Shown: piece by piece, positions 7,543 through 64,000 of the stretch
Numbering within the stretch: position 1 is the stretch's first letter
Layout: each line of letters starts with the position of its first letter
Assembly: GCF_000382245.1 (NCBI RefSeq)
Contig: NZ_KB907876.1
Coordinates: 1-64,000, forward strand
Length of the DNA: 64,000 bases
Reading direction: 5' to 3'
DNA from: Kushneria aurantia DSM 21353
GTDB lineage: Bacteria > Pseudomonadota > Gammaproteobacteria > Pseudomonadales > Halomonadaceae
The notes under the pieces: generated by a model
What the model was told of the DNA's origin: nothing
The model's input: the letters and a program-made list of their open reading frames with translations, nothing else
Databases searched by the model: none
Made by a program: the position numbers and the translations under genes

Positions 7543-7675
7543 CCGCAACCTTACGGCGCCACCAACCGGTGGCGTCGTGGCAAGCCACGCGCCTGCCTTT
7601 CACCCGCCCACCCTCGAATCGGCAGACGTATACGTCACCGTGCCGACATGCCATGATTTGTGCCGACTATACTAA

Positions 7676-7834
7676 GGAAGCGCTGAATAGATCGACGAGC
7701 GAGATGAAGCGCAAGGCGCGTGGAACGCAGAAAACGAGACATAACATGAGATCAGGTGAGTTTTCGACCGAGCTGGCGCACCACTACCACGCACCGCAGC
7801 GATTCACTCGCGCCGGCATTGACGCAGCGTTTCC
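7676..7834. mobile_element. 159-bp MITE, copy 1 (IS5-like ends)
   Basis: A non-coding element of 159 bp that aligns without gaps to 59997-60155, with 27 mismatches by my count (about 83% identity). Its left end is GGAAGCGCTGAATAGATCG, and its right end is a degenerate inverse of that (complement GGAAACGCTGCGTCAATGC). It is flanked by CTAA on the left and CTGA on the right, a slightly decayed 4-bp target duplication. It is too short to encode a transposase and is presumably moved in trans by an IS5-group enzyme. Confidence 0.75.
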
Positions 7835-48621: not shown

Positions 48622-51147
48622 TCAGCGTGGCGCATCGCCGCCATCGCCGGCGTCGTCATTGTCGGCATCGGGTTTTTTCTCGTGCTCGCTGAGGCGGCGC
48701 TCGTCGCTGCGGCGGCGGGCGTCACTCGCGTTATCGTCCCGGCTGGCATCGTCGCTGGCGCGCTGCTCCTGCTCGCCCTCGATAACGCTGTCATCGAACA
48801 TGCGAACCCGCGCCGGCGGCGCACTGCCGTCCTTCTCCTGGCCGAAGAAGAGCGTGGTGTGCGGGAAGGGAATCTCGATGCCGGCGGCATCAAAATGCTT
48901 CTTGACCAGCCGGTTGAAGGCGCGTCCCACGCCCCACTGGGTGCCGGGCTTGACCTTGATCATGATACGGATATTGACCGAGCTGTCGGCCAGCGCGATC
49001 ACGCCCGGTACCGTCATCTCCTCCAGCACGTTGTCCTTCTGCTCCTCGTCCTCCAGCAGTTCGGCGAAGGCCTGGTGCAGATGGTGAATGGCGTCGTCGA
49101 CATTTTCACGGTAGGCGATGCCGTACTCACCCACGTGGTAGGCGAAATCACGCATGTAGTTGGAGACGGTATCCACCGACGAGAAGGGAATGACGTGGTA
49201 GGTGCCATTCAGCGCGCGCAGCCCCACCGAACGGATGGTGATCTTCTCGGCGGTACCGGTCAGCCCCGCCACGCCCACGACATCGCCGGTGTTCATGGCA
49301 TTTTCAAGCTGAATGAAGACACCGGTAATGATGTCCTGCACCAGCTTCTGGGCACCGAAGCCGATCGCCAGGCCGATGACACCGGCACCGGCAATCAGCG
49401 GCCCGATATTGATGCCGATCTGCGACAGCACGATCAGAAGCGTCATGGTCACGATCAGTATCAGCACCGCATTGCGAAACAGCGACAGCAGGGTCTGCTC
49501 CCGCGCGCTGGGTGCCGAGGCAGCGCTCAGGCGGTGCTCGATGAAGCTCGCCACCACTGTCCAGATCAGGGTAGCGATGCCGAGGATGATCGCCACGTGC
49601 ACGATCATACTGATGACAAGCGCACCGCTGTCGGAGGCCAGCCAGCCCGGCAGATCGAAGACGCTCCAGGCGTCCAGCACCACCAGCACCACGAAAATGC
49701 TGAGCAGGATGCGCAGCCCCTTGAGAGCCTTGGGCACATAGGAGTTGACACGATTTTCCAGCATCGGCAGGCGCTCGCTCAGGCTCGACGAGAGCCGGAT
49801 ACGCCGGGCCAGCGCAATGGTCAAAAGCGACGACAGCAGAATGCCGATACCGATCGCCAGCAGCGTCTGCAGGGTGGCATGGGCCATAAAGGGCAGCGCC
49901 TCGGCGGGCTGCAGCTGGCTGACCAGCAGCAGCACGGTAAAGTAGGCGATCGCCAGCACATGCCAGATGCGGCCCAGCAGACGCAGCAGTGTGCCCAGGA
50001 AGGCAAAATTGGTGCGATCGGCACGGGCGTCCAGAGCGTCGCGCAGCACGGTGCGGTGTTTGATGATAAAGCGCACGGCGTAGATATAGACCACCAGCAT
50101 GACCACCAGGCTGAGCAGTTGTCCCGCCGCCGGCGACAGCATGGCGTTGACCATGGGCACCGCCACCAGCAGGCCGTAGCCGGTCACACCCACCACGATC
50201 GCCAGCCAGCGGTTCCAGCGCGCCGCCGTGCTACGGCTCATCTCGAAAAGACGCAGCGAGTCATAGCGGGTAGAGAACACCATCCTGATCAACGCCTTGA
50301 CCACCTCGACCATCACGAAGGCGTTGATAAAAAGGGATTCGGTGCGCCCCACCTCGCCCGCCTGCCCGGAGAAGAACAGGCTCACCATATAGCCCACTGC
50401 GCCGGCCAGCAGCACCAGGGCGACATCGATAATCAGCGCCCCGATAACAACCGCGCAGCGCTTGAACAGCGCCCCGGCCGCCGTGGCATTGCGCTTTCTC
50501 TCACGCTCTTCGAGCTGTTCGCTGTCGTCGCCGCCGGCCATCGGCCGTACGCTGTCCTCCAGAGCAGGATCATTATCATGCGCGGCGGCACCGACGCTTT
50601 CGCCGGTCGCGGTATCCAGCGGCGCCGGTTTGGCCGCGGTCCAGCGGTCAAAGCGGCTGTAGATCGGCGACACCATCGCGCGCAGAAGCAAAAAGGCCAC
50701 GACCGTGGAGATCGCGGCAAAGGCAAAAGCGATCAGAATACGGCTCCACTCGGCCCACGGCAGGCCGGCACCCTGGCCACTACCGGCGCTGCGAAAGGCT
50801 GCGACAGCGTTGCTGACGGTGTCTCCCACTTCGCCGGCAAAGCTCTGGGTAATCTCGGCGATCTGGCCGCCCAGCGAGGCCGGCGGTTCACTCTCCTGCG
50901 CCGGCTCCGAACTGCCTTCAGCCGAGGGCGCCTCGCCCTGGGCGATGGCGCGCAGCTGTTCGATCAGTTGATTGCGCGTCTGTTCGTTCGACAGCATGTC
51001 GGCCAGCGCCGCCGAAGAGACCTGCGGCGACGCCTGGCCACTGCCCTCCCCCGACTGCGACTCGGCAAGCGCCATCGCCGGCAGAGCGGTGATCAGTAGA
51101 ATCAAAAGCGGTAGACGACACCATCCTGCGAGCCTGAGCAAAGCCAC
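48622..51147 (-). CDS. Large MscS-family mechanosensitive channel (YbiO-like)
   Basis: An 841-residue channel with a signal peptide (LPLLILLITALPAMALA), a periplasmic stretch, about ten transmembrane helices and the C-terminal MscS core: the pore helix region GPLIAGAGVIGLAIGFGAQKLVQDIITGVFIQLEN, then the beta domain VVGVAGLTGTAEKITIRSVGLRALNG and VIPFSSVD. It should release solutes on osmotic downshock. The last 70 residues are highly charged. GTG at 51147, seven bases after GGAG, starts the signal peptide; a longer frame overlaps the glutathione peroxidase gene and is spurious. Confidence 0.9.
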   Translation of the reverse strand: MALLRLAGWCRLPLLILLITALPAMALAESQSGEGSGQASPQVSSAALADMLSNEQTRNQLIEQLRAIAQGEAPSAEGSSEPAQESEPPASLGGQIAEITQSFAGEVGDTVSNAVAAFRSAGSGQGAGLPWAEWSRILIAFAFAAISTVVAFLLLRAMVSPIYSRFDRWTAAKPAPLDTATGESVGAAAHDNDPALEDSVRPMAGGDDSEQLEERERKRNATAAGALFKRCAVVIGALIIDVALVLLAGAVGYMVSLFFSGQAGEVGRTESLFINAFVMVEVVKALIRMVFSTRYDSLRLFEMSRSTAARWNRWLAIVVGVTGYGLLVAVPMVNAMLSPAAGQLLSLVVMLVVYIYAVRFIIKHRTVLRDALDARADRTNFAFLGTLLRLLGRIWHVLAIAYFTVLLLVSQLQPAEALPFMAHATLQTLLAIGIGILLSSLLTIALARRIRLSSSLSERLPMLENRVNSYVPKALKGLRILLSIFVVLVVLDAWSVFDLPGWLASDSGALVISMIVHVAIILGIATLIWTVVASFIEHRLSAASAPSAREQTLLSLFRNAVLILIVTMTLLIVLSQIGINIGPLIAGAGVIGLAIGFGAQKLVQDIITGVFIQLENAMNTGDVVGVAGLTGTAEKITIRSVGLRALNGTYHVIPFSSVDTVSNYMRDFAYHVGEYGIAYRENVDDAIHHLHQAFAELLEDEEQKDNVLEEMTVPGVIALADSSVNIRIMIKVKPGTQWGVGRAFNRLVKKHFDAAGIEIPFPHTTLFFGQEKDGSAPPARVRMFDDSVIEGEQEQRASDDASRDDNASDARRRSDERRLSEHEKKPDADNDDAGDGGDAPR

Positions 51148-51371
51148 GGGCACACTCCATGTTGTGTTGGATGAGGTTTGATAGGCGAAGCGCAACCCTG
51201 TCGCGCGCCATGGACAGTCATCAAGCGACAATATGCCCATTATGGATGCCAGCCAATATAGCCTGGCGTTTCGGTCTCGACCTGAAAAAAGCCGGGGACG
51301 GTACGACGACCGTTGTCGGCGCCGATTTTGCCTGCACCAAAACCGTGATGCCAGCCCTGTGACGTCCTGCT

Positions 51372-51866
51372 TCAGGCCGAGAAGTGGGTATCCAGCGCCC
51401 TGCGAATGGGCGCTTCCAGCGCGCTGGCACCGGCTGAGGGGCCGTAGCGGGCGATCACCTGGCCGTCGCGACCGACGAGGAACTTGGTAAAATTCCACTT
51501 GATCGGCGTTGAGCCCAGCACGCCGGGCGCCTGCCGGCGAAGCAGACGGAACAGCGGATCGGCGTCGCTGCCGTTGACCCGCACGCGCGCCATCAGCGGA
51601 AAGGAGACGCTGTATTCACGCCGGCACCAGGCCTCGATATCGCGGGCCGGAGCGGGCGCCTGACGAGCAAACTGGTTGCAGGGAAAGCCCAGTACGGTGA
51701 AGCCCTGATCGCGATGGGCACGGTAGAGCTTTTCGAGCCCGGCCAGCTGTGGCGTGAAGCGACACTCGGTGGCGATATTGACCACCAGCAACACCTGCCC
51801 GCGCAGAGCGCGCAGATTGAAGGGTTCACCGTTGCAGTCCCGACAGTCCTGTTGATAGATATGCAT
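51372..51866 (-). CDS. Glutathione peroxidase family protein
   Basis: A 164-residue thiol peroxidase. The catalytic cysteine C35 sits in VNIATECRFTPQ (canonical VNVASxCGFT), glutamine is in LGFPCNQFARQ and tryptophan-asparagine in IKWNFTKFLV, so the tetrad is complete. The Gly after Cys is replaced by Arg, and the Cys-Asp-Cys near 8-11 is unusual. It reduces peroxides with thioredoxin or glutathione as donor. Confidence 0.9.
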   Translation of the reverse strand: MHIYQQDCRDCNGEPFNLRALRGQVLLVVNIATECRFTPQLAGLEKLYRAHRDQGFTVLGFPCNQFARQAPAPARDIEAWCRREYSVSFPLMARVRVNGSDADPLFRLLRRQAPGVLGSTPIKWNFTKFLVGRDGQVIARYGPSAGASALEAPIRRALDTHFSA

Positions 51867-51997
51867 GGCTTTGGACCGAATGGTGCGATTGGCAATGTTT
51901 TAACATAGTCGATAACCCGGTCGTCACATCAAACCCGGCGCTGGGCAGCGATATAACGATTGGGCACCATGGTCACCCGACTGCCGTGGAAAGTGTC

Positions 51998-52885
51998 ATG
52001 AAACTGCGTCACATCGAAGTGTTTCACGCCCTGATGCGCTGCGGCAGCGTCAGCGCCGCCGCACGCCATCTCAACGTTTCGCAGCCCAGCGTGACCCGCG
52101 TACTGGCACATGCCGAGGCAAGCCTTGGCGTGCGCCTTTTCGACCGCCATGCGCGCGGCATGACGCCGACACCGGAAGCACAGCGACTGTGGCCGAACAT
52201 CGAATCGATGGTCGGCCAGCTCGATGCGCTGGAGCAGCTCGGCCAGCAGCTGCGCCACGGCGTCGACCGCCACCTGCGCCTTGGCGCCTCCCATACGCTG
52301 GGCCTGTCGATACTGCCGCAGGCGGTCATCGATCTGCAGCGCGAAATGCCGGCGCTGCACATCGAACTGGCCACCTCGCACTTCTCGACCCTGTGCGAAG
52401 AGCTCGTGACCCATCGCCTCGATCTGGCCCTGGCCTTCGAGCAGCCGCTACCCACCGGCATTGCCGGAGAGCCGCTGGCACAGGCGCCGATGCAGGCCCT
52501 GGTACCGCGGGAGATGACCGCACCGGCGAGCGTCAGCCTCGCCTGGCTGCACCGCCGCGGCCTGATCGCCATGCCCGGCGACGATCCGCTGGGGCGGCGG
52601 CTCGACGAGGCGCTGACGGCTGCCGGTCTGGATGATACCGCGCCCCGGCTGCGGGTCAGAACCTATAGCCTGATCGCCGAACTGGTGATTGCCGGCGGCG
52701 GTACCGGGGTCGTCGACCCACTCACCGCCGAGCGCTACCGGGAGCAGGTACAGATTGTACCGCTCGACCCACCGCTGGAGATGAGTGTCACCCTGCTACA
52801 CGCCGAGCACACGCCGCTCTCCCATCCCGGTCAGCGGTTGCGCGAGCTGCTGTATCAGCGCCTGAGCGTTCGCGACGAGGTATAG
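51998..52885 (+). CDS. LysR-type regulator of the D-glutamate locus
   Basis: A 295-residue LysR protein: DNA-binding domain MKLRHIEVFHALMRCGSVSAAARHLNVSQPSVTRVLAHAE (1-40) and an effector domain. It lies 99 bases upstream of dgcN-dgcA on the same strand. An equivalent LysR gene (called dgcR) sits with dgcN-dgcA in marine proteobacteria and activates them in response to D-glutamate; the role here is inferred from context. ATG at 51998 is preferred over an upstream GTG. Confidence 0.87.
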   Translation: MKLRHIEVFHALMRCGSVSAAARHLNVSQPSVTRVLAHAEASLGVRLFDRHARGMTPTPEAQRLWPNIESMVGQLDALEQLGQQLRHGVDRHLRLGASHTLGLSILPQAVIDLQREMPALHIELATSHFSTLCEELVTHRLDLALAFEQPLPTGIAGEPLAQAPMQALVPREMTAPASVSLAWLHRRGLIAMPGDDPLGRRLDEALTAAGLDDTAPRLRVRTYSLIAELVIAGGGTGVVDPLTAERYREQVQIVPLDPPLEMSVTLLHAEHTPLSHPGQRLRELLYQRLSVRDEV

Positions 52886-52984
52886 CCTCGGGCTATACCC
52901 TCTGGACGAATCGGCATTCGAAAGCATGAGGGTTTTGTCGGAGACTGAATGGATATCCTGCTCACTTTGGCATTCGGAGCCTCC

Positions 52985-54019
52985 ATGACGACCCCTGACT
53001 ACCGTCCCGCCGAGATTCATGCCCCCTATCTGCTCTTTCTGGGCGATATCGAGGACAGCGTGTCGGCCAAGATGGCCCGCGCCGTGGTGACCTGGCGCCC
53101 CGACAAGGCAGTTGGCCAACTGCGCATGACCGGATCGACCGTCAGCGTCGGTATCGAGGATCTGAGCATTGCAGAGGCAGTCGCGCGCGGCGCCCGCACC
53201 CTGGTGATCGGCGTGGCCAACTCCGGCGGCAAGCTGCCGGGCCACTGGCGCGACGTCATCGTCGAGGCGATCCGCCACGGCATGGATGTCGCCAGCGGCA
53301 TGCACCAGCGCCTGACCGCCATCGAAGGCGTTAACGAACTGGCCCGCGACAAGGGGGTGACGCTGCACGATATCCGCCACAGCCACCCGCCGCTCGAGGT
53401 GGGCAACGGCGAACGGCGCCAGGGCACCCGGGTGCTGACCGTGGGCACCGACTGCTCGCTGGGCAAGATGTTCAGCTCGCTGGCGATCCAGCGTGGCCTT
53501 GAAGAGGCCGGCGTGCGTGCGCGCTTTCGCGCCACCGGCCAGTGCGGCGTACTGGTCGCCGGTGAAGGGGTAGCGATCGACGCCGTAATCGCCGACTTCA
53601 TCGCCGGTGCGGTAGAGTGGCTGAGTCCCGCCGGCGATGACGACCAGTGGGATATCATCGAAGGCCAGGGATCGCTCTTTCACCCCGCCTATGCCGGTGT
53701 CAGTCTCGGCCTTCTGCACGGCGCCCAGCCCGACTGGCTGGTGATGTGCCACGAGCTGGGACGCCCCCATATGCGCCACCTGCCCGGCCGGCCAATGCCG
53801 GAGATGAGCGCCTGTATCGAGGCCAACCTGTGGGCAGCAAGGGTCACCAATCCCGACGTGCGACTGGCGGGCTTCTCGGTCAACACCTCGAACGTCGACG
53901 AAGAGACCGCCAGGCGTGAATTGAAGACGCTGGAGGAGCGCTTCGGCGTACCCGCCACCGACCCCATTCGCTTTGGCATCGCGCCCATTGTCCATGCTCT
54001 GACCGGAGGCCGCACCTGA
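52985..54019 (+). CDS. dgcN: DUF1611 protein DgcN (D-glutamate N-acetyltransferase)
   Basis: A 344-residue DUF1611 protein with a P-loop-like GTDCSLGKMFSSLAIQRGLEE near 150-170 and EGQGSLFHPAYAGVSLGLLHG. Proteins of this type coupled to a dipeptide-epimerase gene were reported as DgcN, which acetylates D-glutamate before racemisation; older annotations call it NAD-dependent epimerase or hypothetical. ATG at 52985 follows GGAG. The stop overlaps the next start (TGATG), giving tight coupling. Confidence 0.85.
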   Translation: MTTPDYRPAEIHAPYLLFLGDIEDSVSAKMARAVVTWRPDKAVGQLRMTGSTVSVGIEDLSIAEAVARGARTLVIGVANSGGKLPGHWRDVIVEAIRHGMDVASGMHQRLTAIEGVNELARDKGVTLHDIRHSHPPLEVGNGERRQGTRVLTVGTDCSLGKMFSSLAIQRGLEEAGVRARFRATGQCGVLVAGEGVAIDAVIADFIAGAVEWLSPAGDDDQWDIIEGQGSLFHPAYAGVSLGLLHGAQPDWLVMCHELGRPHMRHLPGRPMPEMSACIEANLWAARVTNPDVRLAGFSVNTSNVDEETARRELKTLEERFGVPATDPIRFGIAPIVHALTGGRT

Positions 54020-54990
54020 TGCGCACCCTCAAACGCTACAGCCGTAGCTGGCTGCTCGACCGCCCCTTCGTCATCGCCCGCAGCCGCAGTACCGAAATCG
54101 AAGTCGTCCGCGTCGAACTGCATCAGGACGGCATGGTGGGCGTCGGCGAGAGCAAGCCGACATCGCGCTACGGTCACTCGATCGAATCGATTCTGGCCGA
54201 GATCGACGACATTACTGCCGAGATCGAGGGCGGACTCGACCGTCAGCAGCTGCTCGAGGCCCTGCCGGCCGGGCCTGCGCGCAACGCGCTCGACTGCGCC
54301 CTGTGGTCGCTGGAGTGCGCTCTGGAAGGCACAACGCCCACCGCACGGCTGGGACCAGTGCCGGGTAGCGCCATCGTCACCGCCCATACCATCTCGATTG
54401 CCACCCCCGAGGAGATGGCCGACGCGACGCGACGCGAACTGGCCGGCGGCGCACGACTGCTCAAGATCAAGCTCGACGACGACCGGGTCATCGAACGTAT
54501 GCAGGCAGTGCGCGCGGCGGCGCCCGAGGCAAGGCTGATTATCGACGCCAACGAGGCCTGGCCGGCATCGCAACTCGAGGCCTGGTGTCACGCCCTGGCC
54601 GAGCTGGGCGTGGAGATGATCGAACAACCGCTGCCCGCCGGCGAGGATGCAGCGCTTGCGACCTTTGCTCACCCGGTACCGATCTGCGCCGACGAGAGCT
54701 GCCACACGCGCGACGATATCGAAGCGCTCGGGGATCGCTACGACATGGTCAATATCAAGCTCGACAAGAGCGGTGGGCTGACCGAGGCGCTGGCCATGGC
54801 AGCGCTGGCCGCCGAGTGCGACATGGCCATCATGGTGGGCTGTATGCTGGGCACCTCGATGGCGATGCGCGCCGCTCTGCCGGTAGCCGCGTACGCCTCG
54901 ATCGTCGACCTGGACGGCCCTATCTGGCTGGCCGAGGATGACGAGCCGGCGCTCGACTACAGCGACGGCACCGTTCGCGAGACGACCTGA
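54019..54990 (+). CDS. dgcA: Enolase-superfamily racemase DgcA (N-acetyl-D-glutamate racemase / dipeptide epimerase)
   Basis: A 323-residue muconate-lactonising-enzyme subgroup member. KIKLDDD carries the catalytic KxK lysine(s), DANEAW the first metal aspartate, MIEQPLP the glutamate, ICADESC the aspartate, and NIKLDKSGGLTEAL the second-face lysine KLDK: the full dipeptide-epimerase set. With DgcN it would turn D-glutamate into N-acetyl-L-glutamate. An L-Ala-D/L-Glu epimerase role is the alternative. Confidence 0.88.
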   Translation: MRTLKRYSRSWLLDRPFVIARSRSTEIEVVRVELHQDGMVGVGESKPTSRYGHSIESILAEIDDITAEIEGGLDRQQLLEALPAGPARNALDCALWSLECALEGTTPTARLGPVPGSAIVTAHTISIATPEEMADATRRELAGGARLLKIKLDDDRVIERMQAVRAAAPEARLIIDANEAWPASQLEAWCHALAELGVEMIEQPLPAGEDAALATFAHPVPICADESCHTRDDIEALGDRYDMVNIKLDKSGGLTEALAMAALAAECDMAIMVGCMLGTSMAMRAALPVAAYASIVDLDGPIWLAEDDEPALDYSDGTVRETT

Positions 54991-55001
54991 CCGACGCTGC
55001 G

Positions 55002-55502
55002 CTATGCCGCAATCCACCCCCGCTCGATCAGCAGGGCGAGCGCCTGGCGCGAGTCGGGGGTGGCGTCCTCGACGGCCAGCGCCGCCTGCGGCGCCAGCCA
55101 CTCGACGCTCTCCACTTCGCTGGCCTGCAGGTGCAGCGATTGCCCCTCGTAATGGGCCAGATAGACACTACCGAAGGCGTTCATGCCGTCAGCGAAACGC
55201 TGCTCGCCGCAGTACGTGAGCGGCAGCTTCAGCCCCAGCTCCTCGGCCAGTTCCCGCGCCGCCGCCTGATGAAAGCTCTCGCCGGCATCCACCACGCCGC
55301 CGGCGCACAGATCGCGATAGCCGGGAAAGATGTCCTTGATGGTCGTGCGCCGCTGCACGCAGAGCGCGCCCTCCGAATTCAGCACGAAGATATAGACGGC
55401 GCGGTGCCACATGCGTAGCCGCCGCATCTCGCAGCGTCGTGCAGTTCCGACCGGTTGGTTGCGGGTATTCACCAGCTGAACGCGCACATTGGCAGGCATC
55501 AT
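55002..55502 (-). CDS. Nudix hydrolase, YfcD-like
   Basis: A 166-residue hydrolase with a complete Nudix box, GGVVDAGESFHQAAARELAEELG, near 76-98. VQLVNTRNQPVGTARRCEMRR and the LHRAVYIFV-like strand (MWHRAVYIFVLNSEGALCVQRR) place it with the YfcD/IPP-isomerase-like branch. Substrate unknown. I chose the ATG at 55502, with GGGAG six bases upstream; the frame to 55706 is not conserved. It is convergent with dgcA. Confidence 0.88.
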   Translation of the reverse strand: MMPANVRVQLVNTRNQPVGTARRCEMRRLRMWHRAVYIFVLNSEGALCVQRRTTIKDIFPGYRDLCAGGVVDAGESFHQAAARELAEELGLKLPLTYCGEQRFADGMNAFGSVYLAHYEGQSLHLQASEVESVEWLAPQAALAVEDATPDSRQALALLIERGWIAA

Positions 55503-55868
55503 GACACTCTCCCTGTCGTGGAAAATACAGCCCGGGAGGTGAGCCACCCGGTGCCCATCGATAATCACGGCTACTGCCGATATTCGCTCAAGGTTTCGAG
55601 CGTCAGCGGATTCTCTCGCAGCGGCCTCGGGATAGCCGCCTGCAAAGCGGTAGAAGGCGCCACATTCATCGTACCAGACGGAGACCACCGGAAGGCTGTG
55701 CAACATTCATGGTCGCAATGGCAGGTCGACAGACGTATCGCGTCGATTATCGACAATATCCTTTTGGGTATACCATGACCGCCTGGCGCCGCGTTTTGCC
55801 TGTTTCGGCGTTCAGGATGTATTTCCTTTACCACCCGATCATTACGACAAGGCACAAGTCGGATAGAT
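55503..55868. other. Intergenic region before the SNF2 helicase gene
   Basis: This 366-bp stretch should hold the divergent promoters of the Nudix and helicase genes. I see no gene, RNA or repeat; it is somewhat richer in AT near 55730-55870 than the flanking genes. Confidence 0.3.
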
Positions 55869-58800
55869 ATGGCGCATAACTTTGGACGTACCTGGTGGGG
55901 CCAGCAGTGGCTGGCGGCTTTTGATGGCATCGACCACAGCAATCGGTTGCCACGGGGACGGCGTTACGCCAATAACGGCTCGGTACGCTCGATCCATATC
56001 GACAATGGCGCGACAAGCGCCCGCGTCAAGGGTTCGAGGTCCGCACCCTACAAGGTCCATATTGCCCTGCCGGCCTTTTCCGATGCCGAGCAGCGGACCG
56101 TGCTGGACACGGTAAAAGCCGACCCGGTGCTATTATCGCGACTGCTCAACCGCCAGTTGCCGCCACAAGTATCAAGCCGGCTCGAAACGCAGCGGATTTG
56201 GCTGTTTCCGCGTTCGTGGCGCGATCTGAAGGCGAAATGCTCCTGTCCCGACGGCGCACTCCCCTGCAAACATATCGCGGCGGTGATCTATCTGATTGCC
56301 AATGAAATCGACAAGGATCCGTTTCTGGTCTTCACCCTCCATGGTCTGGATCTGGTCGACAGACTGACGGCCCAAATGGCGCTGGCGCCCGCAACACTGT
56401 CGACGCTGCCGGTATTGTCGCAGGGTTGGTCGACAACACCGTCCAACACTGACAACCAGCCGCCATCGATCGAAGCCCTTGGCGCTATCGACTGGTCTCA
56501 TATCCCGCCGCTCGAATCGCGGATTTTTACGATCCTCTCGGCAGAGCCGCTGTTTCACGACAAGGACTTTCGCCAGATTCTGGCGGCCCAATACCAGCGC
56601 ACGCGCCGCGCCGCTCGACGTTTCAACCAGGCGACCACGACTGTCTGGCAGAAGTTCGAGAAGCTGACGGATCTGACGGCCATTATCGACGATAGTGGCC
56701 AACTGATCGAGATGCGTGCCAGCAATCGCCAGGGCGGCGAGGTCGTCCGCCACAGCCACCCGCCGAGTGCGCTGCAGGACCTGCTGGCCGGGCTGCACCT
56801 GCTGCCTGCCGAGCGCGAGCCACGACTCAGCCCCGGCGTGGCACTGTGGCGCATATTGCTGCGTTGCGCGCTCGGGTTGATCGAGCAGGGGGCATTCATA
56901 CCGATGGTGGCGACCAATGTCCGGGAAGAGACGATCATTGTCTGGCAGCCGGCACGTCTGGCCGAACCGGTCGAGACCCTGTTCGAGCAGCTGTGCGCAC
57001 TGTGTCCGTCGGCATTGGTGCAGCAGCGCGCCAACCCGCAGGGAGGCGGCAAAAACGATGCCTGTGCCGAAGCAGCAACACAGATCACCGCCGCACTGAA
57101 CCTGCTGCTCGGCCTCTTTATCCGCATCGGCTTCCATAGCAATGCCGAATCGCGCCGCGACGATCCGGTCCAACAGCTGTTTTTCAACGCCCGCCCGCTA
57201 CGTTTCGAGACTTTCGAGACGCGCCGAACGCCGCAGTTGATCGCTCATTGGCTACGCCGCCTGACGCTGGGCGAGCGCGCCCATCGGCTGAGCCTGATGG
57301 TCGAGGAAGCCGACGATGACCGCCTGGCCGTGACCCTGGCGGTCGAGCATCAGGGCGGCTACCAACCCATCGCGAGCTGGCTTGCGGCTGATGAAAATCG
57401 CCTGGCCAGGGCCGATGTGCTGGCCGATCTGGCGGTGCTGGCGGACTATTTCCCGGATGTCGAAGAGCTGTATGCCGGCCAGCATGGTGCGGCAGCCGGC
57501 AACCGCGAGTTACGCTTCACGCTGGCAACCTTCACGCCCATCATCCGTGATGTGCTGCCGGCGCTGCGCATGCTGGGCATCAATGTCATGTTGCCCAGAG
57601 CGCTGCAGCAGTTGGCCCGCCCACGGGCGAGCCTGTCGCTGTCGGCTTCGGACAGTGACAGCGCAGTAAGTTATCTCAATCTCGAACAACTGCTGGCGTT
57701 CGACTGGCAGGTAGCCATCGGTGACCAGCATGTCTCGATCGACGAATTCCGCCAACTCGTCGACAACGCCACAGGTCTGGTGCGGATCAGGGATCGCTAC
57801 GTGATGATTGACGCGGGCGAGGTCCGCCAGTTGCTCGACAGACTGGAGACGCCGCCGGCCCAACTGTCGCGCGTCGAACTGCTGCAAGCCGGTCTGAGCG
57901 GCGAACTCGACGACGCTGAAGTCACCACGAACAGGGACGCCAGAGCGCTGTTCGATCAACTCATTCGGCCTCAATCGCCACCGCCGCTACCGACGACCCT
58001 CACCGCTCGCCTGCGGCCCTATCAGCAGCGTGGCTTCGAATGGCTGGCTGACAATGCCCGGCTGGGCTTTGGCGCCCTGCTGGCCGACGACATGGGGCTG
58101 GGCAAGACCCTGCAACTGATCGCACTGCTGGCCCATCTCAAGGCGACGCAGCGTCTCGCCTCGGGCGCCCTGATCGTCGTGCCCACGCCGCTGTTGACCA
58201 ACTGGCGCCACGAGTTCGAACGCTTCGCAGCGGACCTGACAGTGCAGGTTTATCACGGGCCCGAGCGCCAACTGGCACGCCACGATCACGACGTTATCCT
58301 GACCAGCTACGGACTGGCGCGCACGGACGCCGGCAAGCTGGCCAAACCGGTCTGGACACTGGTCGCCATCGACGAGGCACAGAATATCAAAAACCCGGCG
58401 TCGGCCCAGGCCAAAGCGGTCAAACGTCTCAAGGCCTATACCCGCATCGCGCTCTCCGGCACACCGGTGGAAAACCGCCTGCGCGAATACTGGTCGGTGT
58501 TCGATTTTATCAATCCCGGGTATCTCGGTACCCAAAAGCGGTTTGCCAGGACGTTCGCCACGCCCATAGAGCGCGATCGCGATCAGGCCACGCTGGACAG
58601 GTTTCGCGCCATTACCGCGCCCTTCATCCTGCGCCGACTCAAGAGCGACACCTCGATCATCGCCGACCTGCCCGACAAGATCGAAGCCAACCGCTACTGC
58701 ACGCTGAGCGCCGAACAGGCGTCGCTGTACCAGAGCAGCGTGGAGACGATCATGGCCAGCCTGGCCAGCAGCGAAGACGGCATCGAACGGCGCGGTATCA

Positions 58801-59408
58801 TCTTTAAACTGCTCAACGCCCTCAAACAGATCTGCAACAGCCCGGCCCAGTTTGCCGGTCGCAAGACGGCGGATGTCGAGGGTTCCGGCAAGCTGGCGGC
58901 GCTCATCGGTATCATGCGCGAGGTCGACGCCGCCGACGAAAAGGCACTGATTTTCACTCAGTACACCACCATGGGCGAGTTGCTCGGCACAGCACTACGC
59001 GATGAACTCGATCTCGAAGCCCCTTTCCTGCACGGCGGCCTCACCCGCAAGCAGCGCGACGACATGGTCGAGGCCTTCCAGGGCGACGCCGGCCCACGCG
59101 CCCTGATCGTCTCTCTCAAGGCCGGCGGTACCGGCCTCAATCTCACCGCCGCCAGCCAGGTGATCCATTACGACCTATGGTGGAATCCGGCGGTCGAAGC
59201 CCAGGCCACCGATCGCGCCTACCGGATTGGCCAGCGTCGCAATGTCACTGTCCACCGCCTGATTACCGAAAACACCTTTGAAGAGAAGATCGACGCCATG
59301 ATCCGTTCCAAAAGAGAGCTGGCCGATCTGACTGTGGCCAGCGGTGAACAGTGGATTAGCGAGCTGTCCGACAGCGAACTGCGGGATCTGGTGGCGTATC
59401 AGCCGTGA
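55869..59408 (+). CDS. SWIM zinc-finger / SNF2-family helicase fusion protein
   Basis: A 1179-residue protein. Domains in order: an N-terminal FGRTWWGQQWLAAFDGID block (about 4-21) and GSRSAPYKVHI segment typical of stand-alone SWIM proteins; a SWIM zinc finger CSCPDGALPCKHIAA (about 124-138); a long SNF2-associated middle region (about 200-690); the SNF2 ATPase with Walker A DDMGLGKTLQ (about 740-749) and DEAQNIKNP (about 836-844); and the helicase C lobe with LIFTQYTTMGELL and QATDRAYRIGQRRNVTVHRLI (about 1026-1130). It should be a DNA translocase/remodeller. It stands alone between a nudix gene and mobile debris; cellular role unknown. Confidence 0.92.
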   Translation: MAHNFGRTWWGQQWLAAFDGIDHSNRLPRGRRYANNGSVRSIHIDNGATSARVKGSRSAPYKVHIALPAFSDAEQRTVLDTVKADPVLLSRLLNRQLPPQVSSRLETQRIWLFPRSWRDLKAKCSCPDGALPCKHIAAVIYLIANEIDKDPFLVFTLHGLDLVDRLTAQMALAPATLSTLPVLSQGWSTTPSNTDNQPPSIEALGAIDWSHIPPLESRIFTILSAEPLFHDKDFRQILAAQYQRTRRAARRFNQATTTVWQKFEKLTDLTAIIDDSGQLIEMRASNRQGGEVVRHSHPPSALQDLLAGLHLLPAEREPRLSPGVALWRILLRCALGLIEQGAFIPMVATNVREETIIVWQPARLAEPVETLFEQLCALCPSALVQQRANPQGGGKNDACAEAATQITAALNLLLGLFIRIGFHSNAESRRDDPVQQLFFNARPLRFETFETRRTPQLIAHWLRRLTLGERAHRLSLMVEEADDDRLAVTLAVEHQGGYQPIASWLAADENRLARADVLADLAVLADYFPDVEELYAGQHGAAAGNRELRFTLATFTPIIRDVLPALRMLGINVMLPRALQQLARPRASLSLSASDSDSAVSYLNLEQLLAFDWQVAIGDQHVSIDEFRQLVDNATGLVRIRDRYVMIDAGEVRQLLDRLETPPAQLSRVELLQAGLSGELDDAEVTTNRDARALFDQLIRPQSPPPLPTTLTARLRPYQQRGFEWLADNARLGFGALLADDMGLGKTLQLIALLAHLKATQRLASGALIVVPTPLLTNWRHEFERFAADLTVQVYHGPERQLARHDHDVILTSYGLARTDAGKLAKPVWTLVAIDEAQNIKNPASAQAKAVKRLKAYTRIALSGTPVENRLREYWSVFDFINPGYLGTQKRFARTFATPIERDRDQATLDRFRAITAPFILRRLKSDTSIIADLPDKIEANRYCTLSAEQASLYQSSVETIMASLASSEDGIERRGIIFKLLNALKQICNSPAQFAGRKTADVEGSGKLAALIGIMREVDAADEKALIFTQYTTMGELLGTALRDELDLEAPFLHGGLTRKQRDDMVEAFQGDAGPRALIVSLKAGGTGLNLTAASQVIHYDLWWNPAVEAQATDRAYRIGQRRNVTVHRLITENTFEEKIDAMIRSKRELADLTVASGEQWISELSDSELRDLVAYQP

Positions 59409-59426
59409 ACCGAAACACCGCCAGAC

Positions 59427-59603
59427 TCAGGCCTTTTTGACGAATTCGGACTTGAGTTTCATGGCGCCAATGCCCTCGATTTTGCAGTCGCTATCATGAT
59501 CGCCTTCGACGAGGCGGATGCTCCTGACCCTGGTGCCTATCTTGACGACCCGAGTCTAGGTGTATGGTGAACCGCATTGCGGACAGAGGGGAAGCTGGCT
59601 CAT
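59427..59603 (-). pseudogene. phnA: phnA (yjdM) pseudogene with internal deletion
   Basis: The minus strand starts MSQLPLCPQCGSPYT, the exact N-terminal zinc-ribbon half of PhnA/YjdM, then meets TAG, and in the same frame continues [20 protein letters not shown] and [21 protein letters not shown], its C-terminal domain. About 50 central residues (including the second zinc CxxC) are missing compared with the usual length of about 110, and the stop lies at the junction. A ribosome-binding site (GGAAAC) remains. The function of YjdM is not established despite the alkylphosphonate name. Confidence 0.85.
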
Positions 59604-59996
59604 ATCGGTTTCCACGGTAAATAAAGGCGCAGGGTGACAAAATCCGCAGCATGATAATCGCAAACGGCACGCCATCCCGGCTCCAGCCTGTCCGGGGCAG
59701 GTGCGGAACATCATCTTGTGGAAGGACGCAGTAGTGGGACAGAGCAGCTTACCGGCATTACCACCCTTGTATAAAAAAAGGCTTCGCAAGCGAAGCCCGA
59801 AAGAAAGCCATCACGATGAAATGAAAGGAACAGCCGGACGGCTCGGCAAGCGACGAGCCCAACGTCCTGCTGTCTATCCATATTCTGCCAGCTGTAAAAG
59901 AATTGTCCAGTTTTCAGGGGCTATCGTGCTGATTTATTTTACAATCACCCTGATAGAAATCGGGTCGTGCACAGCACCTGCTTTACTGTACATTAG
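59604..59996. other. Non-coding stretch between phnA remnant and MITE copy 2
   Basis: Apart from the hairpin at 59773-59797, I see no gene. Short frames lack family resemblance. It has the look of decayed sequence, AT-richer than the surrounding genes toward 59890-59990. Confidence 0.35.
59773..59797 (-). terminator. Orphan intrinsic terminator
   Basis: On the minus strand GGCTTCG-CTTG-CGAAGCC is followed by seven T. No minus-strand gene lies upstream within the window that it would serve, so a gene was probably lost here. Confidence 0.65.
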
Positions 59997-60155
59997 GGAA
60001 GCGCTGAATAAATCGCCGAACAAGATGAAGGGCAAGGCGCACGGAACGCAGAAGACGAGACATAACATGGGGTTAGGCGAGTCTTCGACCGGGCTGGCGC
60101 ACCAGTACCGCGCAACGTAGTCATTCGCTCGTGCAGGCATTTATGCAGTGGTTCC
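59997..60155. mobile_element. 159-bp MITE, copy 2 with intact target duplication
   Basis: Same length as copy 1 at 7676. The left end GGAAGCGCTGAATAAATCG and right end (complement GGAACCACTGCATAAATGC) are imperfect inverted repeats. It is bounded by TTAG at 59993-59996 and TTAG at 60156-60159, a 4-bp direct duplication of the YTAR type used by the IS5 group. Confidence 0.82.
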
Positions 60156-60307
60156 TTAGCTGTACTCCTGACAGCGTTATGGTCACAAACCCATCAGCCC
60201 CTCGAAAAGCACAGGCTGGCTGACTACGCTTTCAGATTGATATGACCCGATTCGACATCGGCCGATGCCGCTGTCGCTGCGCTACCCACGTCAACGGAGG
60301 ACCATCC

Positions 60308-60658
60308 ATGGGTATATTTTCTTCTTCCAACGAACAAAAAGTGCGGCGCCGACTCAAGGACTACGAGTCGGAGCTGAACCGTCGCGGAGCGCAGGCACTG
60401 GCACGCTATGAGGACGAACTGGAGAGCAGCGGTCGACGTATGCGCGACCGCGTGCGCAGCGCCGGCGACGACGTCAGTAAACACTGGAACCGTACCCGCG
60501 ACCGCCTCGGCGACGAAGGTCAGCGCGCCTGGGCGATGACGGAAGAGAGCGCACGCGATATTGATCGCCATGTGCATGAAAACGCCTGGGCCTACATCGG
60601 TGCCGGTGTGGCTGTCGGCGTGGTTGCCGGTGTGCTGCTGGGACGCGGCAAATTCTGA
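60308..60658 (+). CDS. DUF883 family (ElaB/YqjD-like) tail-anchored protein
   Basis: A 116-residue protein: a long charged helical region (about 10-85, many Arg and Glu) and a C-terminal membrane helix (ENAWAYIGAGVAVGVVAGVLLGRGKF, about 91-116), the layout of DUF883 ribosome-associated inner-membrane proteins linked to stationary phase in E. coli. The ATG at 60308 follows GGAGG. Confidence 0.83.
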   Translation: MGIFSSSNEQKVRRRLKDYESELNRRGAQALARYEDELESSGRRMRDRVRSAGDDVSKHWNRTRDRLGDEGQRAWAMTEESARDIDRHVHENAWAYIGAGVAVGVVAGVLLGRGKF

Positions 60659-60680
60659 CCTCCCCCGCACCAACCACTCA

Positions 60681-60702
60681 TCCGCCGCCCCCGGGCGGCG
60701 GA
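60681..60702. other. GC hairpin after the DUF883 gene
   Basis: TCCGCCGCCC and GGGCGGCGGA face each other around CC. No T-run follows, so terminator activity is doubtful. Confidence 0.4.
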
Positions 60703-60845
60703 TAGCGCTCTGCCGCTATACAGGCACACTCGCAGCGACATCATGACTCTCCCACTCGGGCCACGGCCGAAGCTCGATGTTTTATACTGTTAGTGCAGGA
60801 TACGAATACCTTTCAATCTGCCCGACAGAGAAGAGGAGACGTCTC

Positions 60846-61283
60846 ATGTATCGTTCAATGCTCGTTGCCATCGATGGTTCGGGTAACGCCAACAAGGCGC
60901 TGGAAGTCGCCCTGCAGCTGGCGCGTGGTTCCGGCGCAAAACTCTATCTGATACATGTGCCCTCGCATCTGCCCGCCGAGGATGCACTGGGGCGCCAGAC
61001 CGGGGCCAGCAGTATCAACGAGACGCCGGAGAGCTTTCGCGAAGCCGGCCTGCAGATCGTCAACACCGCTATTGGGACACTTGATCTTGCCGGCATCGTC
61101 ACCGAAACACTGATCGTCGACGGTAAACCCGCCGAGGCCATCCTGGATCAGGCCAGGCGACATGATGTCGACGCTATCGTCATGGGCCACCGCGGCCTCG
61201 GCCATGTGGCGGAAATGATGGGTGGCAGCGTATCGCGATATGTTAATCATCACGCCGCCTGTCGCGTCATTACGGTGAGCTGA
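60846..61283 (+). CDS. Universal stress protein (UspA family)
   Basis: A 145-residue single-domain Usp. MYRSMLVAIDGSGNANKALEVALQLAR starts the fold and the ATP-binding motif GHRGLGHVAEMMGGSVSRYVNHHAACRVITV (G-2x-G-9x-G-S) is intact, so it probably binds ATP. Such proteins accumulate under stress or growth arrest. The ATG at 60846 follows GAGGAG; a longer frame is not conserved. Confidence 0.92.
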   Translation: MYRSMLVAIDGSGNANKALEVALQLARGSGAKLYLIHVPSHLPAEDALGRQTGASSINETPESFREAGLQIVNTAIGTLDLAGIVTETLIVDGKPAEAILDQARRHDVDAIVMGHRGLGHVAEMMGGSVSRYVNHHAACRVITVS

Positions 61284-61310
61284 TCAACGTGGCCTCGAAA
61301 GGGGTCTGAC

Positions 61311-61445
61311 TCAATGGCGCTGGTGGCGTTCCTTCTGCCAGCGCCGGAAGGTCTTCCAGCCGATCATCACAATCAGCGGGAAGAACAGTAGCGTCAGAAT
61401 GGCGCCGGAAGTGATAAAGAAAAACTGCAGCACACCCTCGCTCAT
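61311..61445 (-). CDS. Small single-span membrane protein (44 residues)
   Basis: The product MSEGVLQFFFITSGAILTLL... has one long hydrophobic helix (about 7-31) and a basic tail (KTFRRWQKERHQRH), so N-out/C-in by the positive-inside rule. GGAG six bases before the ATG at 61445 supports translation. I do not recognise a family. It lies 46 bases downstream of a Crp/Fnr regulator gene on the same strand and may share its transcript. Confidence 0.55.
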   Translation of the reverse strand: MSEGVLQFFFITSGAILTLLFFPLIVMIGWKTFRRWQKERHQRH

Positions 61446-61491
61446 GAATGACTCCACTTGATGAATCAGGAATGAATAACGGCCGGCCGGG

Positions 61492-62202
61492 CTACATGCG
61501 CAGATAACTGCCGTCGAAGTCGGCAAAACCGATCAGCCGGTCGAGATCGGGAATGGAGACCTGGTGGCGATCACGATAGACCAGCCCCTTCTCTCGCAGC
61601 TGGGTGAAGACCCGACTGACGTGTACCGGGGTCAACCCCATGGTGTCCGCCAGCATTTGCTGTGAAAGGGGCAGACGGAAGTCCTTCTCGAGATCGGGGT
61701 TGGTGCGGGAGAGCCGGCTTCGCATTTCGCAGATGAAGTGGCTCAACCGTGTCTGGGCGCTGCGTCGACCGAGGTTGATCATGCGCTCGACCAGCATCGA
61801 CTGCTGTGTTGCGGCAATGGAGAAAAAAGTGTGGGTCAGACGCGGCGAGTTTTCGAAGATGTCATCGAGATGGCGCAGCGGAAAGCGACACAGGGTGCAT
61901 TCGGTGACGGTTTCGACATTGGCCTGATGCGTTCTGGCCGAGAACTCGCGTAGACCGATCACATCGCCGGGCAGAAAGATATCAAGAATCATGCGACTGC
62001 CATCTTCCAGCGTGTAGCTGCTGAATGCCCAGCCCTTGCTGAGTACCGCCATCTCCTCGGAGGGATCGCCCTCCTTCCACATCAACTTGCCGGCCGCCAC
62101 CTTTTCGGGCGATTTTTCCAGCGCTGACAGTAAATCGACCTCGAGCTGACCGAGCCTGGTGAAATACTGAAAATGCCGAACCATGCAGCTCTTATGCGCC
62201 AT
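61492..62202 (-). CDS. Crp/Fnr-family transcriptional regulator
   Basis: A 236-residue regulator: cyclic-nucleotide-binding-like jelly roll (about 15-130, with FLPGDVIGLREFS), a dimer helix and a C-terminal winged helix-turn-helix PLSQQMLADTMGLTPVHVSRVFTQLREKGLV (about 180-210). The N-terminal cysteine cluster of FNR is absent, so it is not an oxygen-sensing Fe-S protein. Its signal is unknown. An internal ATG at residue 7 is a possible alternate start. Confidence 0.88.
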   Translation of the reverse strand: MAHKSCMVRHFQYFTRLGQLEVDLLSALEKSPEKVAAGKLMWKEGDPSEEMAVLSKGWAFSSYTLEDGSRMILDIFLPGDVIGLREFSARTHQANVETVTECTLCRFPLRHLDDIFENSPRLTHTFFSIAATQQSMLVERMINLGRRSAQTRLSHFICEMRSRLSRTNPDLEKDFRLPLSQQMLADTMGLTPVHVSRVFTQLREKGLVYRDRHQVSIPDLDRLIGFADFDGSYLRM

Positions 62203-62340
62203 TGGGACTGCCCCCGGAAATTTATATCAGTTATCAGGTCATATTATGCTGGCACCCTGATAGCCGGGGTCACAATCGCTGGCAACGAGCAGGAAAGCAA
62301 GCAGGACGTCAGTAGCGGGAACCGACGCTTTTCGAAGCGC

Positions 62341-62428
62341 TGGTGCCGGTGGTCGGACTCGAACCGACACGGAGTATTAGTCCGGCGGATTTTGAATCCG
62401 CTGCGTCTACCAATTTCGCCACACCGGC
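62341..62428 (-). tRNA. tRNA-Leu(CAA)
   Basis: The 88-nt minus-strand gene folds as a type II tRNA: acceptor GCCGGTG/CACCGGC, D-arm with AAATTGGTAGACGC, anticodon loop TTCAAAA (CAA), a long variable arm (CGGACTAATACTCCG), T-arm GTCGGTTCGAGTCCGAC, and an encoded CCA end at 62341. Confidence 0.96.
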
Positions 62429-62540
62429 CGGCGCCTGATGCGCCACGTATTATACGAGGCGCCATCGACACGTCAATGACGCCGCCAAACGTCCCGGGTA
62501 TCATGCGCCCTTCTTTAACTTCATCTCGCTTCGGACTTTC

Positions 62541-64000
<1,460 letters not shown>

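Follow-up and report, generated by a model that had tools for sequence, protein, structure and literature searches.

Gene and domain organization

Within a 64,000-nucleotide stretch of DNA from Kushneria aurantia DSM 21353 (contig NZ_KB907876.1, positions 1 to 64,000; hereafter the window), one gene was found to encode a SWIM zinc-finger module and a SWI2/SNF2 motor in a single protein. SWIM stands for SWI2/SNF2 and MuDR, a name reportedly introduced in a paper by Makarova in 2002. The open reading frame (ORF) of this fusion gene comprises 1179 codons without an internal stop. The features of the locus are given in Table 1.

TABLE 1. Features of the SWIM-SNF2 locus, with positions in the window and the evidence for each.
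Feature	Position	Strand	Evidence
SWIM-SNF2 fusion gene	55869–59408	+	One open ORF, 1179 aa; Pfam domains; 73% identity over 1175 columns with Salinisphaera orenii L103
N-terminal SWIM module, residues 1–170	55869–56378	+	Pfam SWIM; hhalign to separate SWIM proteins; AlphaFold2 model compared with ZSWIM8
Middle domain, residues 171–545, without Pfam family	56379–57503	+	Pfam scan; weak profile match; AlphaFold2
DUF3670 (PF12419), residues 547–674	57507–57890	+	Pfam, E 5.1e-30
SWI2/SNF2 motor, residues 700–1179	57966–59405	+	Pfam SNF2-rel_dom and Helicase_C; SsoRad54 core 1z63; Foldseek
DNA absent from congeners	~55540–59765		Flank spacing; shared terminator; boundaries uncertain by at least 100 bp
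Broken phnA relic	59427–59602	-	Inside the inserted DNA; match to intact phnA at G000:C6
Intrinsic-terminator-like hairpin	59779–59798	-	Ancestral to the site
MITE-like repeat	59994–60158		Separate insertion; 31-nt imperfect inverted ends

All four Pfam domains of the protein exceeded their curated cut-offs: SWIM (PF04434, residues 118–141; 28.7 bits against a cut-off of 19.6), DUF3670 (547–674), SNF2-rel_dom (PF00176, 718–992) and Helicase_C (PF00271, 1008–1121). The SWIM match contains a CxC..CxH zinc finger at residues 124–135, whose ligands C124, C126, C133 and H135 were invariant in an alignment of 46 fused homologues. With both PF00176 and PF00271 above cut-off, the two-lobe SNF2 motor is complete, and its motifs ADDMGLGKT (739–747), DEAQ (835–838), SGTP (863–866) and DRAYRIGQ (1115–1122) are intact. 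Among the same homologues motif I was invariant and motifs II, III and VI were invariant or nearly so. Thus, the open ORF, the Pfam domains and the motifs agree with an earlier reading of the DNA (the preliminary description), which had reported one 1179-residue SWIM-SNF2 chain with all ATPase motifs. Mean conservation was 0.70 for the SWIM part and 0.69–0.70 for the motor lobes, and was lowest for residues 171–545 (0.32–0.38). SWIM was the sole family detected at E 0.01 in a Pfam scan of the 46 front halves, and the Pfam scan of the fusion protein detected no effector domain, nuclease included.

The same genome encodes a second helicase-like protein (G000:C5, 15494–18961), a 970-aa open frame that matches query residues 1019–1173 at 36%. 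A scan with Rfam matched tRNA alone, and a search of E. coli genomes with positions 55500–60300 gave no match.

Predicted structure

The best solved relative of the protein by sequence was the SsoRad54 core 1z63 (454 bits, residues 708–1175), and the same Sulfolobus solfataricus SWI2/SNF2 core was the top Foldseek match for the motor (E 7.9e-38, 44% identity). By VIA-align the motor gave Z 30.0 and a root-mean-square deviation (rmsd) of 14.9 over 453 residues with 1z63, and Z 32.2 and rmsd 9.5 over 435 with INO80; in our reading, these large rmsd values would reflect the orientation of the lobes. With ZorD (8qy7) it gave Z 28.7 and rmsd 9.8 over 448. A search of a viral structure library returned at least 50 matches, and those listed were mostly helicases and SNF2-type proteins.

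The AlphaFold2 model of the whole chain had a mean predicted local distance difference test (pLDDT) score of 83.7 and a predicted template modelling (pTM) score of 0.60, and residues 1–545 modelled alone reached a pLDDT of 88.7 and a pTM of 0.90. The front half is therefore predicted to be a well-formed unit whose placement relative to the motor is uncertain. Residues 10–153 aligned with ZSWIM8 at Z 6.2 (rmsd 3.0 over 92 residues), a Z below the trust level of the tool and consistent with the SWIM call from sequence. No solved relative of residues 1–545 was found by sequence at E values up to 10, and the middle domain, searched as part of these residues, showed no convincing solved fold.

Insertion site

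Matched flanks of the locus were found to lie 636–699 bp apart in all nine congeners and 4.8–5.1 kb apart in the window. The difference of 4.1–4.4 kb includes a 165-bp repeat resembling a miniature inverted-repeat transposable element (MITE). The inserted DNA contains the fusion gene and a broken phnA. The relic consists of two pieces, 59427–59552 (84% over 126 bp) and 59557–59602 (76% over 46 bp), that match the intact phnA at G000:C6 66445–66786. It is thus a second, internally deleted copy; the phnA matches of the congeners lie outside this locus.

Sequence comparison of the intergenic DNA covered seven of the nine congeners. A sequence like the terminator segment 59765–59820 was present in the intergenic DNA of six of the seven (z 5.3–10.1; L183 gave no match), which shows the terminator to be ancestral and not orphan debris, and therefore makes it the right bound of the main insertion. 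Segments 55560–55868 and 59409–59765 gave no clear match to congener intergenic DNA (best z 2.2), and likewise none was obtained for two segments beyond the supposed insertion, 59820–59900 and 60159–60290. For 55488–55560, a match was seen in some congeners only (z 1.2–8.5). Since intergenic pieces both inside and outside mostly fail to match, the edges of the insertion are uncertain, and the argument for an insertion rests on the length difference and the shared terminator.

The 31-nt ends of the MITE-like element are 71% complementary. The element also lies at 7673–7834 of the window. Among the candidates scored, at most 30 per genome, it was listed at 28 further places in the genome (79–98% alike) and in none of the nine congeners, which looks like a species-level burst. 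Of the decayed stretch that had been described beside the gene, the broken phnA and the MITE were thus borne out; the supposedly orphan terminator was not.

Distribution and horizontal transfer

The fusion gene was detected in three of 201 sampled Halomonadaceae genomes, this genome included, and in none of the nine congeners. In the family of Salinisphaera it was present in 4 of 17 genomes, all four belonging to one genus (14 genomes), and in the family of a Saprospiraceae metagenome-assembled genome (MAG) in 30 of 120, where a few of the matches are fragments and one extends over no more than 27 residues. A core Halomonadaceae gene was rejected by the family survey together with the shorter site in all nine congeners; for the same reasons the gene is accessory, as the preliminary description had supposed from its setting. 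That description had weighed its view against a syntenic core gene with uniform codon use. The gene was found not to be core, which favours the earlier view, and its codon use was found to be uniform, which speaks against it: the codon distance was 0.088, within a range of 0.060–0.220 for the 34 long ORFs tested, fusion gene included. This host-like codon use points to no more than amelioration, or to a donor whose composition is similar.

In a careful tree, the protein clustered with those of Salinisphaera orenii and genome G597 with support 100/100. In the approximately unbiased (AU) test, vertical inheritance within Halomonadaceae, modelled as a grouping with Salinicola, was rejected (p-AU 4.9e-5), and so was a single group of the four Salinisphaera copies (p-AU 1.2e-4); the groups were chosen after a quick tree had been seen, which somewhat weakens these p-values. 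Since the nearest kin are found in Salinisphaera, a member of another family, and the grouping with Salinicola was rejected, the gene has been transferred horizontally. Apart from the gene itself, the Salinicola copy compared (L198) has just two short, distant stretches in common with the window. Three of the four Salinisphaera copies lie at one common locus, adjoining genes that we take, from translated ORFs judged by eye, to resemble argB, dut, coaBC and radC.

Fused and split forms

Genome contigs were scanned with N-terminal patterns, that is, for likeness to the front half, and the best 80 of 557 matches were kept, which gave 79 loci and offers no basis for a fused-to-split ratio. Together with plasmid, phage and IMG/VR loci and one whole-genome match, 85 loci were read (L069 and L106 being one contig). 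A complete fused ORF spanning both halves was found in 76 of the 85; seven run off a contig end, and L117, at a contig edge, has no start. Among the best of the 557, the hosts of fused loci were Salinisphaera, Salinicola, Marinobacterium, Endozoicomonas and relatives, many Bacteroidota and a few others. The fusion is thus not new: it is a known, patchily spread family of which a copy is already annotated as 'SNF2-related protein', and the proposal of an uncharacterised system on account of the fusion is not supported.

Several of these copies are unusual. On a conjugative plasmid of Aeromonas salmonicida, 70 kb in size (NZ_CP022171.1), a fused copy (L098 11989–15477) adjoins an IS5-like transposase and lies less than 10 kb from AbiEii-type and Hok/Gef genes. 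The copy in a Wolbachia phage WO record (L101 7992–10832; MN180251.1, marked unverified) ends at about residue 950 and has no Helicase_C, which represents either a truncated gene or a record fault. A gammaproteobacterial MAG (L120 9908–17346) carries two full-length fused genes in tandem with ~74% mutual identity.

In a sample of 369 genomes from the class, residues 1–700 were matched in 20, and the form was fused in two of these, this genome and Salinisphaera japonica. The front match in the other 18 was limited to residues ~1–177 (the SWIM part), and 13 of the 18 showed a second match at ~500–674. Thirteen split loci, 10 from the class and 3 from plasmids, were read over their full length, and in all of them the SWIM gene comes after the helicase gene on the same strand, an order also given by annotation. 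The fused order, in which SWIM precedes the helicase, is the reverse. This constant adjacency suggests that the SWIM and helicase modules act together. By hhalign, residues 5–170 and the separate SWIM proteins were shown to be one and the same module (probability 100%, E 2.5e-50, 163 columns), and profile comparison showed a weak likeness of the middle domain to the separate helicases at their N-terminus (E 5e-4, probability 32%).

In the survey of fused against split forms that the preliminary description had proposed, the two differed in module order and also in a tree, where 50 fused proteins fell on one side of a branch with a Shimodaira–Hasegawa-like approximate likelihood ratio (SH-aLRT) support of 100, apart from 13 split helicases and five other SNF2 proteins. 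This tree came from a quick search without bootstrap and contains some long branches; the grouping was the same with and without the split rows L200 and L215. The simplest reading of the sequences would be a single origin of the fused form through a rearrangement, in either direction.

Neighbourhood and defence genes

For a survey of recurrent partners, 659 neighbours of the 85 loci were clustered; 82 loci had any. No specific partner gene was found, no neighbour family being present in more than 9 of the 85 loci. The widest clusters were a histidine-kinase-like family (9 loci) and an AAA-type ATPase (8 loci), both at varying positions. A probable RmuC family lies near the gene in six loci, four of which (L118, L119, L120 and L162) belong to related MAGs whose fused proteins are 93–96% identical and which are the source of most other clusters. 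Since every recurrent neighbour either belongs to a broad family without a fixed position or comes from these four related loci, the fusion gene is solitary, in agreement with what had been said of it from the window.

From 232 near and 181 far neighbour ORFs, 124 each (from 47 and 34 loci) were scanned with PADLOC at E 1e-10; the scanned sets were the first 150 under 900 aa, minus hand-dropped ORFs, mainly long proteins and doubtful ORFs. The near set matched 60 PADLOC families and the far set 48; these counts refer to families and not to neighbour proteins, and some of the ORFs in GC-rich loci are spurious. Among the listed families, 18 of 25 in the near set were matched by two or three proteins, against none in the far set, where all 25 were matched by one. 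The near set contained restriction, AbiE and candidate-system matches, and the far set Kiwa and candidate-system matches. Many of the matched models are redundant models of broad families, and for this reason we read the comparison as showing no clear defence enrichment near the fusion gene.

Proposed function and alternatives

We propose, with a probability of about 0.5, that the gene encodes a solitary, mobile and horizontally acquired SsoRad54-type translocase of double-stranded DNA (dsDNA), most likely for recombination or repair. The complete SNF2 motifs, and the rank of the SsoRad54 core as best relative both by sequence and in Foldseek, argue for a translocase. We infer a stand-alone, ATP-driven enzyme of the SWIM-associated SWI2/SNF2 (SsoRad54/SSO1653-like) kind, in which the two RecA-like lobes (residues 700–1179) would grip duplex DNA and step along it through ATP hydrolysis, with no need for unwinding. 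Its translocation could push off or remodel bound proteins. DNA or a protein partner may be bound by the front half (residues 1–545), made up of the SWIM module with its zinc and the middle domain, and this half probably gates the motor. The most likely use would be to assist in homologous recombination and in repairing or restarting damaged replication forks, for which the archaeal Rad54 relative is reported.

Movement of SWI2/SNF2 ATPases along dsDNA without strand separation is described in a passage of PMC5512222, and archaeal Rad54 is named among the helpers of RadA strand invasion in part of PMC6555300 (citing Haseltine and Kowalczykowski, 2009). Two further reports are weak pointers to a role in DNA damage. 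For Deinococcus deserti, an excerpt of PMC5552922 places a SWIM zinc finger gene, of possible kinship to the present SWIM module, among the most radiation-induced genes, with the radiation-response motif marked for it. Loss of yqhH in Bacillus thuringiensis, a gene called SNF2-family and possibly akin to the present one, is stated in a section of PMC10054049 to lower survival after 30 but not 60 min of UV.

Several points weigh against a translocase for recombination or repair. A patchy distribution of the kind seen here (3/201, 4/17 and 30/120 genomes) and copies in plasmid and phage records are features more usual in genes for defence or of mobile elements than in repair genes. The motor is also similar to ZorD of Zorya (8qy7), the score against the nearest NCBIfam helicase family was 653 of 1200 bits, and NCBIfam holds a pilus-regulating SNF2 helicase. 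A Caulobacter SWIM gene appears in a biofilm-screen list in part of PMC13001252, and no experiment on a fused protein was found in the open-access literature searched.

The same patchy, solitary and horizontally moved gene could act as a single-gene defence, in which a translocase patrols DNA and the SWIM and middle domains guide the block or disassembly of phage or plasmid DNA-protein complexes. The motor matches the PADLOC models of ZorD, DpdE and DrmD as well as the ZorD structure, type I restriction-like genes were recognised by eye downstream of the gene in Salinisphaera orenii L103, and more of the listed PADLOC families were matched by two or three proteins near than far. However, the protein's own PADLOC matches stem from the shared SNF2 motor and the NCBIfam cut-offs for ZorD, DrmD and DpdE were missed, Pfam revealed no nuclease or other effector domain, and the near and far family counts showed no clear enrichment, so that we regard this role as somewhat unlikely. 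Were its role defence, the gene would represent a system of a single protein, a translocase equipped with a zinc sensor. In a bolder form, which we consider unlikely, the fused SWIM-SNF2 proteins would be a widespread, self-contained single-gene system of immunity or genome surveillance that senses foreign or damaged DNA via the SWIM and middle domains, acts by translocation alone, has moved between phyla and has been recruited by plasmids and phages; the reversed module order would then be a second solution to the coupling of a zinc sensor to an SNF2 motor.

It is distinctly improbable, in our judgement, that the gene serves plasmids and phages by protecting or remodelling incoming DNA, the chromosomal copy being a stranded remnant of optional use to the host. 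Matches that cover 80% or more of the protein were found in nine plasmid records (Aeromonas, Cupriavidus and Persicobacter) and one Wolbachia phage WO record, IMG/VR added one contig, and SWIM-associated SWI2/SNF2 ATPases are called widespread in mobile systems in a passage of PMC5512222. Nevertheless, 79 loci (best of 557) came from bacterial genome contigs against one viral locus, in collections that differ in size; inspection by eye of the DNA adjoining the insertion revealed no gene for an integrase or for transfer, and most Salinisphaera copies share one locus. A transcription-linked remodeller, acting like RapA on RNA polymerase or on nucleoid proteins and altering gene expression, would accord with the Caulobacter gene and with the second-best NCBIfam match, a 'pilus expression-regulating Snf2 family helicase' (367 of 1100 bits). 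This role is very unlikely: SsoRad54 is the best relative, RapA scored 55 of 576 bits, and the Pfam and fold searches, the only ones used for this purpose, identified no RNA-polymerase-binding region.

The fused build is present in several phyla, and the copy in K. aurantia represents a natural experiment, being intact and alone, with an empty site in close relatives. As there is no partner gene, a single deletion could tell a repair role from a defence role.

Comparison with known systems

Compared with the split pair, consisting of a helicase taken to be of the SCO1167/SCO6262 type (NF058637) and a SWIM gene, the fusion protein contains the same DUF3670 and SNF2 block and the same SWIM module. 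The pair is formed by two genes in the order helicase-SWIM, whereas the present protein is one chain in the order SWIM-helicase and falls into a separate tree group. It scored 653 bits against the NF058637 equivalog cut-off of 1200.

The SNF2 motor of the fusion protein resembles that of ZorD of Zorya type I in fold, but the protein missed the NF041790 cut-off (283 of 1500 bits), and no other Zorya genes were recognised by eye among the ORFs of 50000–64000, neighbours that were judged without a PADLOC scan. The cut-offs for DrmD of DISARM (92 of 950 and 70 of 610 bits) and for DpdE of Dpd (59 of 500) were likewise missed.

With SsoRad54/SSO1653 (PDB 1z63, 1z6a and 1z5z) the protein shares the kind of motor, at 44% identity in Foldseek; the crystallised chains represent the motor core or a C-terminal part, and the fusion protein adds a SWIM module and a middle domain in front. 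The same full-length architecture was found in the 'SNF2-related protein' WP_042468249.1 of Aeromonas salmonicida pS121-2 and in the fused homologues of Salinisphaera, Salinicola, Marinobacterium, Endozoicomonas and Bacteroidota, which, WP_042468249.1 included, are ~35–73% identical to the K. aurantia protein over the best segment.

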